From a bacterium (lineage in GTDB: Bacteria > SM23-31 > JAUVVT01), in NCBI GenBank assembly GCA_030616165.1, contig JAUWXV010000248.1:1-5336 (forward strand): DNA of 5,336 nt, read 5' to 3'. Made by a program: the position numbers and the translations under genes. The notes under the pieces are model-generated. The model did not search any database. It was given only the letters and a program-made list of their open reading frames with translations, and was not told the DNA's origin. Position 1 is the first letter of the stretch; each line of letters opens with the position of its first letter. This document shows positions 776 to 5,304 of the stretch, in pieces.

Positions 776-789
776 CATTCTCTTATACA
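763..789 (+). promoter_or_regulatory. Possible promoter of the aldo/keto reductase gene, -35 in MITE end
   Basis: TTGACT at 763-768 matches five of six positions of the sigma-70 -35 box. TATACA at 784-789 is a fair -10 box, but the spacer is only 15 bp (TACATA at 786 would give 17 bp but matches less well). The -35 box overlaps the right terminal repeat of the MITE-like element. It sits about 45 bp upstream of the start codon at 834 and no better candidate is visible. This is a weak call. Confidence 0.3.
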
Positions 790-833
790 TAAATACCTAT
801 TTAATATCCATTTTAAATCAAAGGATATATACC

Positions 834-2054
834 ATGAAATCACTAAAAAACAATAACAAATTAACGAGAAGAAATTTCATAAAAAAAAGTTTATTTGGAA
901 CAGGCGTTCTAATAAATACAGGTAAATATTTTCAGGTTAAAGAAAAAAATATTGTCTCAAAAGATGTTGAAATGAAATATAGAATACTCGGAAAATCCGG
1001 ATTAAAGGTTTCTGAAATTGGCTTGGGAAGATTAGAGATGCAGGGTGAAAATGTTCTGGACTACGCTTTGGACAGAGGAATTAATTATATTGACACACCG
1101 CATGAATACATACAGGGCGAAGAAGACAGAATGTTAAGAATTAAGAAAAGAAGAGATAAGGTAGTAATCGCCTCATTACTTGTAACTTCGCATACTTCGA
1201 CAAAACAGGAAACGATGAAATTAATTGAGAACATATTGAAAAGAATGCAGACTGATTATGTCGATATAGCAATTATATATAATGTAGGTTCTGTTATTCG
1301 GAAATACGGGATAACACAACATATTGAACGTCTCAAGAATGAAAATGTAATTGAGGCAATAAATCAGGCTAAAAAGGAAGGAAAAGTAAGGGCTCTTGGC
1401 ATCAGCAGTCACGGCAGAGACTTTATGGACTACATGAACTATGCTATTGACTCCGGTCACTTTGACATGCTTATGCTGAAATACAACTTTATGTCATTCC
1501 CCGATGAAAAAGAATTACTCAGAAAAGCAAAACAAAATAATGTCGGTTCTGTGGCAATTAAAGTAGTAGGAGGCGCAAACGACCAGAAAATAAAAGGATA
1601 TGAAAAATCAAGAACTCCCGAATTCCGCAGGGCAGCCATTAAATGGGTCCTCTCAAATCCAGACATTACCAATCTTGTAATAAGGATGCCCACATTTGAA
1701 GAGGTGGATAACTGCATCAGGGCACTTGATGAAAAATATGGATATAACGACAGAATACTCCTTGAAAAATACGCCTCATCAGTCAAACCATATTACTGCA
1801 GGTGGTGCAGCACATGTACACAGGCTTGTCCTTATGGTGTATCTATTCCAGACATCCAGAGATATCTAATGTATTTCACAAACTTTGAATACAAAAAAGA
1901 GGCAGTGGAAAAATATGCTGATTTACTCCCTGAACAAAAAGCCAATTACTGTTCTGATTGTAGCGCCCCTTGTGAAAACAAATGTCCCAACAACATACAT
2001 ATAAAAGAAATCCTAACCGAAGCACATGAAATTCTTTCTGTCAAAACTGTATAA
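834..2054 (+). CDS. Tat-exported aldo/keto reductase with C-terminal iron-sulfur domain
   Basis: A 406-aa protein of the COG1453 type: an aldo/keto reductase barrel followed by a ferredoxin-like region. The open frame extends upstream to 690, but that part lies inside the MITE-like element. ATG 834 has AAAGGA at 820-825 with an 8-nt spacer and opens a twin-arginine leader (TRRNFIKK, residues 11-18), so I chose it. The barrel begins at residue 47 (MKYRILGKSGLKVSEIGLG), includes GINYIDTPHEY (residues 82-92) and GKVRALGISSHG (183-194), and ends with a degenerate cofactor-binding stretch near residues 281-297. The catalytic Asp87 and Tyr92 are present. The usual Lys position reads VVIASLL (Leu115), and the usual His after YVDxxxx reads Tyr149. 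Cysteines 322, 325, 328 and 332 and then 373, 376, 380 and 384, each ending in CP, could bind two [4Fe-4S] clusters. The Tat leader implies folding with cofactors before export or membrane association. The substrate is unknown. No operon partner is visible. Confidence 0.9.
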   Translation: MKSLKNNNKLTRRNFIKKSLFGTGVLINTGKYFQVKEKNIVSKDVEMKYRILGKSGLKVSEIGLGRLEMQGENVLDYALDRGINYIDTPHEYIQGEEDRMLRIKKRRDKVVIASLLVTSHTSTKQETMKLIENILKRMQTDYVDIAIIYNVGSVIRKYGITQHIERLKNENVIEAINQAKKEGKVRALGISSHGRDFMDYMNYAIDSGHFDMLMLKYNFMSFPDEKELLRKAKQNNVGSVAIKVVGGANDQKIKGYEKSRTPEFRRAAIKWVLSNPDITNLVIRMPTFEEVDNCIRALDEKYGYNDRILLEKYASSVKPYYCRWCSTCTQACPYGVSIPDIQRYLMYFTNFEYKKEAVEKYADLLPEQKANYCSDCSAPCENKCPNNIHIKEILTEAHEILSVKTV

Positions 2055-2086
2055 ATTATTATTTCTAATTCATGTTAATAATTTAT
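2051..2086. terminator. AT-only inverted repeat at the reductase gene end
   Basis: ATAAATTATTA (2051-2061) and TAATAATTTAT (2076-2086) are perfect 11-bp arms around a 14-nt loop, overlapping the stop codon. The stem has no G or C and no T-tract follows, so it is at best a weak transcript end. Confidence 0.2.
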
Positions 2087-2418: not shown

Positions 2419-2569
2419 GTTTTCCACCTTGCCAATGCTTGTCATAAATAGTGTGAAATAGTGAGAATTCAATAAAACAATGTAAATACAGCATCTACAA
2501 GCAGTTATGGTGTTTTTAATAAGTCACAAAGTTGTTTAAAAATTACAGGGCAACTTACTGTTAACCAGT

Positions 2570-2881
2570 ATGTTCGGGATTCGATTCCTTGTTGGCGTAC
2601 TTTATTTTTTATTAATTTACGTATTGTTTATAACAAGAAAGTCAGTTGTTCTTTATCCTAAGATGATAGATATGTGTCTTGATACCAATAGAGCGCTTGA
2701 AGAATTTCATTCTGGAGATAAGGATTACTCATACATATCCCACCAAATCCAGATATTCTTAAGAGGTGAAATAAAAGACGCAAGAATTAACGATTATAAT
2801 GATTTGGAACAATTTAAGAAATGCCAAGAAAAGACTTTTTATACTAATATTATTAGACAAGACCTAAATAGAAATAATTAA
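2570..2881 (+). CDS. Small hypothetical membrane-anchored protein, 103 aa
   Basis: I do not recognise this protein. Residues 6-21 (FLVGVLYFLLIYVLFI) form one membrane helix followed by RK, so the N-terminus acts as a signal anchor or uncleaved leader. The remaining roughly 80 residues are hydrophilic and mixed-charge, apparently mostly helical, ending QDLNRNN. Two cysteines (residues 36 and 85) could be structural. No good Shine-Dalgarno motif precedes ATG 2570, which weakens the start and perhaps the gene. Later ATGs at 2663 and 2672 would drop the membrane helix. In DNA this AT-rich an open frame of 312 bp can arise by chance, though the composition (anchor then soluble domain) looks protein-like. 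It stands alone, about 500 bp after the reductase gene. No function is assigned. Confidence 0.45.
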   Translation: MFGIRFLVGVLYFLLIYVLFITRKSVVLYPKMIDMCLDTNRALEEFHSGDKDYSYISHQIQIFLRGEIKDARINDYNDLEQFKKCQEKTFYTNIIRQDLNRNN

Positions 2882-3156
2882 CAAAGATGTTGATAATTCA
2901 TATTATACAATTGAGGTATAGAAAAAACACTTGATAATGTAAAATGTATCTCTTAATTTTTAAAAGTAGAGTATCCAAAATGTTTTGAAGACACACAAAG
3001 GTCTAACAACTCTTTTTTACTCAATTATAGCGTCTCCCAGGTTGCTGAAAAGCGACCAAGGGAAGTATTTTGGAGCAAAGCCGTGAAGTGGGCAAGGTAG
3101 TATTATTGGCTGTTGGCGCTTTCTTTCATGTGGTAATAGTATTTGGATTAAACTTT
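2882..3156. other. Intergenic region between convergent genes
   Basis: No gene is supported here. The segment around 3030-3130 is less AT-rich than its surroundings and has short readable stretches in more than one frame (for example AEKRPREVFWSKAVKWAR, then a stop), which could be the residue of a lost gene. A short stem GGTTGC (3040-3045) with GCGACC (3052-3057) around a 6-nt loop is not followed by a T-tract, so it is not called a terminator. Confidence 0.4.
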
Positions 3157-3972
3157 TCAACGTATCTCATATATTTCAATAGCAATCCTATCGCTTCCAA
3201 AGAGAACTTCGTAGATTCTGGTTACGGTTATCCTGTACGTACGCTCAGAATGACTAAACTCGATGGATTCTCCTCGTTCCCGTACAGTTAATATATGCAT
3301 ATCCTCTTCACTGATATCACTGATTAGTTCGCGGAATCTAGACTCTGTGACCCTTTCAGAGCTCGGCCAGGAATCCATATCACTGACGATAACATATACG
3401 TTGAAAGGCTCCTTATTTGGATTTTGGATATCTTTCACATAAACGTATACCTCATTCTGAAACCTCGAATGCCTTAGACGCCGAATATTTCTTTCTTTAA
3501 GACCAAAATATTCAACTAATACATCTTCCTGAAACTTTGCTATCCTTGAATTGGAACTGGTAGGAGTATATCCTACGCTGATTAGTAAAGTTGCCAGGCT
3601 GAATCTCTGATGCGCCTCGAAATCAGGTAATATGTCAGTTTGGTAATCTACAAACCTTCCAGAATCCTCTAAAAGGTTGCTTCCCCCACCATTTTTGTTA
3701 TTTTCTTGATTCGGTCCTTCCTGTATCAGTGGTGGGAATAATTGTTCGCCAGTGTATAATCTATATATAGGTGTAAAGGCAAGGATAATACCAAAAACTC
3801 CAAGCAACACCCTCTTATATATAGCCTTGATTGGAATTTCTGTAGATATAATTCCCCAAATAGGGATAATCCGTCCCATAATGGATACGAATATTAAGTA
3901 GATTCCAGATAAACCAAAAATCCCACTGCTTCCCTTGTCACTAAAAAAATTAATTGCATCAATAATAGACAT
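3157..3972 (-). CDS. Hypothetical protein with two membrane helices and a C-terminal soluble domain
   Basis: A 271-aa protein that I cannot assign to a named family. The start is well supported: on the minus strand AAGGAGG (complement of 3978-3984) lies 5 nt before ATG 3972. Residues about 17-42 (GIFGLSGIYLIFVSIMG...) and 55-70 (VLLGVFGIILAFTPIY) form two membrane helices. The loop between them is positive (IKAIYKR), so by the positive-inside rule both ends probably face the exterior or periplasm. Residues 74-105 are a flexible linker rich in Gln, Asn and Gly. Residues about 120-271 look like a folded alpha/beta domain: a helix (RFSLATLLISVGY), a very basic stretch (LKERNIRRLRHSR, 158-170), strands (NEVYVYV, FNVYVIVSDMD), then an acidic helix and a final strand pair. 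No catalytic motif stands out. It is transcribed alone, converging on the 103-aa frame. The start-side region 3973-4100 shows no convincing promoter. Confidence 0.85.
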   Translation of the reverse strand: MSIIDAINFFSDKGSSGIFGLSGIYLIFVSIMGRIIPIWGIISTEIPIKAIYKRVLLGVFGIILAFTPIYRLYTGEQLFPPLIQEGPNQENNKNGGGSNLLEDSGRFVDYQTDILPDFEAHQRFSLATLLISVGYTPTSSNSRIAKFQEDVLVEYFGLKERNIRRLRHSRFQNEVYVYVKDIQNPNKEPFNVYVIVSDMDSWPSSERVTESRFRELISDISEEDMHILTVRERGESIEFSHSERTYRITVTRIYEVLFGSDRIAIEIYEIR

Positions 3973-4368
3973 AATTCCCTCCTTTTTCTCATAAAACTTT
4001 TCTATTTTATTTTCTTATATAAAGTTCCTTTTGTAATGGTAATAAATAAAAATAATAATCAAAACACGATTCCTAATAAGGTAGATTGTGGTCTTAAAAT
4101 ATGTTATTAATATAAGTGACGCACCCCATTCCTATTTTGTGCTTCATCAATTTCTTTGGATTGATTTTGCTTTCTTGCAGAGGTCGAATTTGTATAATAA
4201 CTGTATTGTTATTAAAGGATTTCTATTTGGAGGATGATATTTTACTTTATTGTGTCGTTTATGAATGGTAGATTTTTACGCTTCTGGATATTTTTAAGTC
4301 CATTTCTAAATATTATACAAAAAAAATAATTAAAAGTCAATTCTTTATTAAAATAATTTATTTTTTAA
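3973..4368. other. AT-rich intergenic region without a supported gene
   Basis: This is the upstream region of the minus-strand membrane protein gene. A TATAAT occurs at 4193-4198 (+) without a matching -35 box. A 31-codon open frame at 4234-4329 (+) would encode a hydrophobic peptide, MIFYFIVSFMNG..., but GGAGG abuts its ATG with no spacer. A minus-strand open stretch, 4094-4222, has no start signal. None is called as a gene. Confidence 0.5.
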
Positions 4369-4399
4369 TTGACAAACCTAAAATCTTATACTATATATT
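4369..4399 (+). promoter_or_regulatory. Sigma-70-type promoter upstream of the integrase relic
   Basis: TTGACA at 4369-4374 is a perfect -35 box. TATATA at 4392-4397 follows with a 17-bp spacer, and TATATT at 4394-4399 with 19 bp. This is the best promoter match in the window. It lies about 32 bp upstream of the ATG of the recombinase-like relic at 4431, so it is probably the surviving promoter of that gene. Its -35 box also lies in the right arm of an inverted repeat, GTCAATT (4336-4342) with AATTGAC (4367-4373), which could be an operator. Confidence 0.5.
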
Positions 4400-4430
4400 G
4401 GAAAAATAACACAAAAGAAACGTAATAATT

Positions 4431-4569
4431 ATGGCAACATTACGCAAAAAAAATGAAAAATGGTTACATTTGGTTTGTTGATTTGATTCATAACGGTGAG
4501 TGACATAAAAAGAATATTAGGCTATCAAAAAACAAAAATTTAAATACCTTTACATCCGCCGATGATTAA
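4431..4569 (+). pseudogene. Relic of a phage-type tyrosine recombinase (integrase) N-terminus
   Basis: ATG 4431 opens MATLRKKNEKW, a start typical of phage integrases. That frame then stops at TGA 4479. The next frame, from about 4459, continues with NGYIWFVDLIHNGE, a TGA at 4501-4503, then HKKNIRLSKNKNL and ends at TAA 4567-4569. Integrase N-terminal arm-binding domains commonly read about 'MATxRKKNGKWyidfxyNGxRhkkxxxLskNKxlA'. Reading the TGA as a mutated CGA (Arg) and placing one indel in the A-runs between 4446 and 4460 restores this pattern. The catalytic domain (Arg...His-x-x-Arg...Tyr) is absent: nothing similar is visible downstream. The ribosome binding site is poor. I infer a dead, truncated integrase. 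The alternative is a chance resemblance over about 45 residues. Confidence 0.5.
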
Positions 4570-4690
4570 CTATATTTACCTGTGTTTACCTATATTATAT
4601 GAAACTTTTTACACCAATTTGGTACAAATAGAAAATTATTAATTTGTAACTAATTGATTTTTATAATCGATTATCAAATTACGTAGTAAT

Positions 4691-4710
4691 TTCAAATCCC
4701 ACCCGGGGAG
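4691..4710 (+). other. Displaced tRNA 3' end, probable attachment-site remnant (tRNA-Asn-like)
   Basis: The 20 bases fit the end of a tRNA with exact geometry: T-loop TTCAAAT (4691-4697), T-stem 3' strand CCCAC (4698-4702), acceptor 3' strand CCGGGGA (4703-4709) and discriminator G (4710). The partner T-stem strand GTGGG is missing just before it (the sequence is GTAAT), and no D-arm or anticodon arm lies upstream, so this is a fragment. An acceptor of TCCCCGG/CCGGGGA with discriminator G best matches bacterial tRNA-Asn. CCA is not encoded; C and seven Ts follow. Integrases that target tRNA genes leave such a 3' copy at the far end of the inserted element, and the integrase relic lies about 120 bp to the left. 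Confidence 0.6.
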
Positions 4711-4719
4711 CTTTTTTTC
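4697..4719 (+). terminator. T-tract after the tRNA 3' end
   Basis: TCCC (4697-4700) can pair with GGGA (4706-4709), followed by C and seven Ts (4712-4718). The stem is short. The T-tract is most simply read as the original terminator of the tRNA gene that this fragment was copied from or cut off. Confidence 0.35.
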
Positions 4720-5304
4720 TAATCAATTATTGATATTAGATTTATAAATATAAATTTTTGACACTGACAAACCATTGCTATCTTAATAAAGCAATGTTTT
4801 TTGTTTTATAGCTTTAAATCATAAACACATTTTATACCAAATTATCTGAATGAGTGAATAAGTCAAATACGGCCATTTTAATTAAAGTGCTCAAATCATA
4901 AAGCAAAAGAAAAAAAACACTTTCAAAAATCAAATTTATTTCTTATCTTTAATTTACTGAGACGTTTTGATACATACAAACGAGAATTAAGCCTTATACT
5001 TGTTTGGAAAATAATTTCTCATGGTCTGCGGATAAAAGAAATAAAGTCGGATTATCTTTTATTTTGGATGGATAAACGAACCGATGTTTTGCTATTTTAA
5101 GTTAGGCGAAGTGCTTATGAGGTTGCATAAGAAGCAAATAATGAAGATAGTAATAATGTAACTTGGAATGCGGAAAACGGTTTTTCTATTCATTCAGAGT
5201 TGGCAAAGAAGAGCCGGGTTAAAAGAATAACCAAATCTTGTTAGCCTAAATGGTGGAGAGAACTCATCGATTAAATAAAGTGTGTAACGGAGAGTACTTA
5301 AACA
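4711..5304. other. AT-rich region without a supported gene
   Basis: No coding sequence of convincing size is present on either strand. A TTGACA occurs at 4758-4763 without a good -10 box. The terminator-like hairpin at 4773-4802 lies here. A 37-codon open stretch at 5131-5243 (EANNEDSNNVTWNAENGF...) has no start codon or upstream signal. The last 100 bp are presumably the leader of the glycosyltransferase gene, but I see no convincing promoter. Confidence 0.5.
4773..4802 (+). terminator. Intrinsic-terminator-like hairpin
   Basis: CATTGCT (4773-4779) pairs perfectly with AGCAATG (4790-4796) across a 10-nt loop and is followed directly by six Ts (4797-4802), then GTTTT. The stem is only 7 bp with three G/C pairs, so its strength is modest. 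No intact gene lies upstream on this strand. It could end a transcript from the promoter at 4369. Confidence 0.5.

Follow-up and report, generated by a model that had tools for sequence, protein, structure and literature searches.

A displaced tRNA-Asn 3' end as the probable far border of a decayed integrative element in a genome with many tRNA scars

In the window, a 5336-bp stretch that is the whole of contig C90 in a 3.74-Mb genome of 343 contigs, the 20 nucleotides at 4691-4710 are probably a tRNA-Asn 3' end displaced by an integrative element that has since decayed, and they would mark its far end (attR). At least two integration events are combined in the window, since position 2600 is the end of another fragment of the same orientation, a tRNA-Lys 3' half with a break of the anticodon-arm type. 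The features of the window and of related loci are listed in Table 1.

The 20-nt segment reads TTCAAATCCCACCCGGGGAG and is followed by a C and then by seven T. It divides into a T-loop of seven nucleotides, a T-stem 3' strand of five, an acceptor 3' strand of seven and a single discriminator base. ARAGORN finds no tRNA within the window. This observation, made in the original prediction from the letters alone, is confirmed: the spacing of a tRNA 3' end, the missing tRNA body and the T-tract are correct according to the parse and ARAGORN. The accompanying claim that no partner strands lie upstream is to be qualified, as a degenerate T-stem 5' strand (GTAAT, versus GTAGG in tRNA-Asn) may survive upstream of 4691. 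The segment is not scattered over unrelated sites; the 22-mer at 4690-4711 is single in the genome even when up to three mismatches are allowed. A tRNA gene ending in exactly these letters had been expected and is absent among the tRNAs found in the genome.

Among the 34 tRNA 3' ends of the genome, that of tRNA-Asn(GTT) is the best match to 4691-4710, with 16 of 20 positions identical (runner-up, 14/20). The four differences are all transitions. By base composition, the chance expectation per window is 0.001 for tRNA-Asn and 0.04 for any of the 34 ends. Reversed and shuffled tRNA ends give 2 and 3 matches of at least 16/20 in 190 kb of contigs, which corresponds to an empirical chance rate of about 0.06-0.08 per window length. 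Taken without the second copy described below, the 20-mer is borderline and only suggestive of a tRNA-Asn origin. A better match to the scar than the genome's own tRNA-Asn is found in G014, a distant genome, whose tRNA-Asn (TTCGAATCCTACCCGGGGAG) agrees at 18/20; the scar may therefore derive from a donor or from an older tRNA-Asn. The scar occurs in none of the 59 other genomes searched; the available relatives are distant, and a search for an orthologous locus to compare found none.

The second copy is on contig C92. In a whole-genome search, C92:12885-12946(-) aligns with window positions 4653-4714 at 77% identity over 62 bp (E about 7e-7). Its tRNA part (C92:12889-12910(-), 18/20) is identical to tRNA-Asn at 17 of 17 positions beginning exactly at the first T-loop base, an identity expected 7e-5 times genome-wide by composition. 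This sister copy makes the tRNA-Asn origin of 4691-4710 convincing. The two loci have approximately 38 bp in common upstream of the tRNA part (ATTGATTTTTAT...TTACGTAGTA), and their downstream sides are unalike. Such upstream-only sharing would be produced by two insertions of one element type and thus points to the left as the element side. This agrees with the earlier placement of the element to the left of 4691, since an arm shared upstream only behaves as element arms do. An Asn-type arm is shared between independent insertions on C90 and C92; it was not found in viral contigs. The C92 copy falls in the class with a T-loop (sublocation II) crossover, its identity starting at the first T-loop base, whereas the window copy has diverged too far to locate the crossover boundary by itself.

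Under the proposed mechanism, a tyrosine recombinase would have crossed over within the T-loop heptamer TTCGAGT (sublocation II) and joined the attP of the element to tRNA-Asn. Integration would have regenerated the tRNA-Asn at the opposite element end and left the 3' part of the gene, starting with the T-loop, behind the element arm at 4653-4690. The element would thus have lain at the left, with its integrase since lost and the fragment drifted by the four transitions. The fragment, the arm common to both loci, the second scar and complete element pairs of this design elsewhere in the genome are direct observations; the recombinase class, the crossover point, the element side and the decay are deduced. 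Against this explanation stand the inexact 20-mer, the lack of an integrase ORF, a cognate tRNA that is off the contig and flanks that all differ. No intact integrase ORF appears in the window, either in the ORF list or in an integrase domain search. A candidate frameshifted integrase N-terminus, weakly indicated by its translation, has no match in Pfam or PHROGs. The 271-aa ORF between the two scars has no significant family match, and phage and plasmid look-ups with this ORF and with the scar region returned nothing useful. Two Prevotella phage matches fall at 4716-4763, a 48-bp AT-rich stretch.

Table 1. Features of the window and positions of the 30-bp near-palindrome in tRNA remnants elsewhere in the genome.
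Feature	Position	Strand	Basis
Aldo/keto reductase with 4Fe-4S domain	834..2054	+	DNA paralogue (88%) beside tRNA-Pro and integrase on C94
Decayed right-end integrase arm before tRNA-Lys half, ACCTTGCCAATGCTTGTCA ... CAGCATCTACAAGCAGTTA ... GTCACAAAGTTGTTTAAAAA	2423..2545	+	73% to C4 arm
Second scar, tRNA-Lys(CTT) 3' part (positions 21-75), anticodon triplet now GTT	2546..2600	+	87% over 55 nt, E 1e-13
Dispersed motif with imperfect palindrome GTCCAAAATGTTTTGAAGAC	2922..2998	+	220-320 bp downstream of tRNA 3' half at C90, C92, C4
271-aa ORF between the two scars	3160..3972	-	ORF list
Candidate frameshifted integrase N-terminus remnant, MATLRKKNEKW / WFVDLIHNGE*HKKNIRLSKNKN	4431..4566	+	Translation; weak
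Element-side arm common to window and C92 scars, absent from tRNA-Asn	4653..4690	+	62-bp match and alignment
tRNA-Asn(GTT)-like 3' end, first T-loop base to discriminator (putative displaced tRNA fragment, attR core)	4691..4710	+	16/20 to own tRNA-Asn; C92 sister copy
T-tract 3' of tRNA fragment	4712..4718	+	T7 also after intact tRNA-Asn
30-bp near-palindrome in tRNA remnant	C4:261-290	-	
30-bp near-palindrome in tRNA remnant	C86:23019-23048	-	
30-bp near-palindrome in tRNA remnant	C177:13762-13791	+	
30-bp near-palindrome in tRNA remnant	C312:7833-7862	-	
30-bp near-palindrome in tRNA remnant	C17:1328-1357	-	
30-bp near-palindrome in tRNA remnant	C145:15738-15767		

The tRNA-Lys scar was missed in the original prediction and is clearer and stronger than the tRNA-Asn scar. 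With a covariance model of tRNA 3' halves it scores 23.8 bits, and the next match in the window scores 4.4. Its stretch from T-loop to discriminator matches at 19 of 20 positions. The arm that precedes it was aligned with those on C4, C69, C86, C327 and C237, and its identity to the C4 arm extends over 164 aligned positions (E 2e-20). This Lys-type arm is shared between insertions on C90, C4, C69, C86 and C327, where it also precedes 3' halves of tRNA-Met and tRNA-Val (C4), tRNA-Arg (C327) and tRNA-Val (C86), as well as a Lys-like fragment (C69). The two window scars are of different types, have the same orientation and are both decayed. Both are displaced 3' fragments that reach the tRNA end, as in the islands collected by Islander. 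The view that the left side is one simple element does not hold, as the tRNA-Lys half sits within it; consequently, 2601-4652 cannot simply be read as the right-hand portion of a single large element.

Neighboring scars with unlike tRNA cores are found in the window (Lys then Asn), on C92 (Val then Asn) and on C4 (Val then Met). Homologous recombination between arms, secondary-site integration and assembly errors are possible sources of these mixed cores. On C4, Gfo/Idh-like and hydrolase-like genes occupy a 4-kb segment that has a tRNA-Val half at its left and a tRNA-Met half at its right, and both halves carry the same arm type, which gives mixed cores in one array.

The dispersed motif downstream of the tRNA-Lys half has the same orientation near the tRNA halves on C90, C92 and C4. 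It is also present elsewhere in C4 and in C237 and C177 (copies include C92:18105-18171 and C237:2947-3029). It is perhaps a left-end or regulatory module, such as a promoter or operator of element genes. Its recurrence after tRNA halves hints that the left end of another element starts past 2600. The aldo/keto reductase region is duplicated, with window positions 786-2074 and C94:2671-3961 having 88% DNA identity, and each copy has a tRNA or a tRNA scar no more than about 500 bp away. At the contig end, positions 1-570 contain TTAACCCCTAACTTTAGTTAGGGG units in repeats that are tandem and interspersed (period 134, 2.1 copies), and related stretches occur on C4 and C92.

An intact tRNA-Asn(GTT), which had been expected to the left, beyond the window, is present in the genome at C295:31402-31477 and is the only one detected. 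It cannot be linked to the window, because the window is a whole contig and C295 ends 76 bp past the tRNA. A place for it just beyond the window is doubtful. The last 78 bp of C295 have no other copy that could be found. The cognate of the second scar, tRNA-Lys(CTT), is on C326 and is likewise not linkable to C90. No two of the three loci (window scar, C92 scar and intact tRNA-Asn) have the same downstream flank. The right side of the window, previously taken as the original chromosomal flank with a glycosyltransferase gene, differs from the C295 tail and is therefore not proven to be that flank; the assignment is doubtful. The window includes no more than 32 bp of the supposed glycosyltransferase gene. 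In the class relative G002, an integrase-like ORF (MVRIKPVRVMKRGHYFQLYFYNHLQKRRR...) begins roughly 230 bp downstream of tRNA-Asn and resembles, by eye, the tRNA-adjacent integrases of the window's genome. This suggests that tRNA-Asn is used as an integration target in the lineage and says nothing of the integrase behind the window scar.

Across the genome there are about 17-20 tRNA 3' scars outside intact tRNAs, a lower bound that comes from a covariance model, tRNA BLAST and 190 kb of contigs. At least 17 are assigned to a tRNA: six to Val, two each to Met, Lys and Asn, and one each to Arg, Leu, Ser, Ala and Glu. Further 3' remnants are on C17, C312 and C145. Four contigs carry an intact tRNA together with a 3' copy in the same orientation. 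On C21, tRNA-Met is followed after 4.06 kb by a 52-nt copy (98% identical), and the far end of this pair has an integrase remnant; the distances are 1.6 kb for tRNA-Ser (C56), 0.34 kb for tRNA-Leu (C173) and 6.5 kb for tRNA-Glu (C3). A fifth pair, with tRNA-Pro on C312, is collapsed to about 60 bp. Eleven integrase domains exceed the cut-off, and four of them (C106, C127, C150 and C94) are directly at tRNAs and are 46-66% identical.

In the closed control genome G017, the same model and threshold give 40 intact matches, one other match resembling a tmRNA end and no scars; the window's genome has 12 or 13 scars at this threshold. The class relatives G001, G002 and G004 have one to three scars each, as lower bounds from incomplete genomes (70-79%), after two tmRNA-like ends are set aside. 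The kind of scar is ordinary and known, and its density in this genome is unusual and of more interest than a single scar.

The genome also contains 5' halves of tRNA-Pro and tRNA-Lys (C94:4077-4248 and C326:31513-31665), which end near the anticodon loop and directly precede intact copies of the same tRNA. The tRNA-Pro half comes right after an integrase gene. Six different tRNA 3' remnants carry a 30-bp near-palindrome (TCCGCC...GGATCCGCC...GGA) in the T-loop, in all six exactly after GGTT. This near-palindrome has about 25 sites in the genome, and the others examined are outside tRNA remnants. It looks like a site-preferring mini-insert. A wider reading, which is tentative and rather doubtful, is that the lineage spreads and shuffles small cassettes that are flanked by tRNA 3' halves and carry cargo such as aldo/keto reductases and Gfo/Idh-type oxidoreductases. 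One integrase family with conserved arms would have switched between Lys, Val, Met, Arg and other targets, and the separate 30-bp palindrome would repeatedly split discarded T-loops at GGTT^.

It is unlikely that the 62-bp unit is a dispersed repeat of the ordinary sort, tRNA-like in its right half by chance and formed with no integration. Two copies of the unit are known, the window copy matches at only 16/20 and the chance level for any tRNA is about 0.04-0.08 per window, all of which a repeat would accommodate. However, the C92 copy follows tRNA-Asn at 17/17 from the exact T-loop start, in phase with the tRNA end, and tRNA 3' scars that are beyond doubt are numerous in the genome, several of them having integrases. 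Some of the window junctions could also be assembly artefacts, in which short-read contigs were merged at repeated integrase arms. The fragmentation into 343 contigs, the repetition of the arms and the adjacent scars with different cores in the window and on C4 fit this account, but both window arms are decayed (73-77% to relatives) and so are not assembly repeats, and the same-contig tRNA pairs are self-consistent. Such a contribution appears quite unlikely.

A complete tRNA-Asn pseudogene that decayed without recombination, leaving 4691-4710 as its tail, is very unlikely. There is weak upstream likeness to a tRNA (by eye, 11 of 16 positions against the variable loop and T-stem), but neither ARAGORN nor the covariance model detects a D-arm or anticodon arm, and decay of a tRNA would not give an upstream 38 bp that is common to an unrelated locus. 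The C+G-rich stretch followed by T7 resembles an intrinsic terminator, and 4691-4718 could in principle be the terminator of an upstream gene that mimics a tRNA end. This was rejected as extremely improbable: a terminator scan reports none, the local fold has a four-pair stem that stands apart from the T-tract and does not surpass shuffled sequences (z -0.46), and no gene ends just upstream.

A single tRNA scar is routine. The 17-20 or so scars, the shared arms with different cores and the complete pairs make the genome a study case for an integrase family that changes its tRNA target and for genomes that fill with remnants. Integration boundaries of this kind are overlooked by tRNA finders alone.

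In the islands collected by Islander, a regenerated tRNA and a displaced fragment mark the ends, with a mean of 3.0 islands per genome having any (PMC4383910). The window is similar in the orientation of the 3' fragment, the crossover class (T-loop or T/acceptor junction) and the element-side arm, and its genome has complete same-contig pairs elsewhere. Unlike those islands, the window is without cognate tRNA and integrase, its fragment is diverged and the scars per genome are many. The tRNA-targeting integrases use the anticodon stem-loop or the T stem-loop (Williams 2002, as described in PMC8371274), and a break in the T-loop is one of three known tRNA target regions (PMC8371274). In accordance with these classes, the breaks lie around the anticodon arm in the Lys-type scars and at the T-loop in the Asn-type scars; the Asn-type scars differ in being known here without their integrase. 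The ssrA islands of Dehalococcoides integrate repeatedly at a tRNA-like T-loop, have a 20-bp 3' direct repeat at each boundary, carry metabolic cargo and occur in tandem (PMC3146451). Repeated T-loop integration, 20-bp 3' repeats, metabolic cargo and tandem arrangement are all paralleled here. Dehalococcoides has a single target, ssrA, and a serine recombinase, whereas the window's genome has many tRNA targets and tyrosine recombinases.
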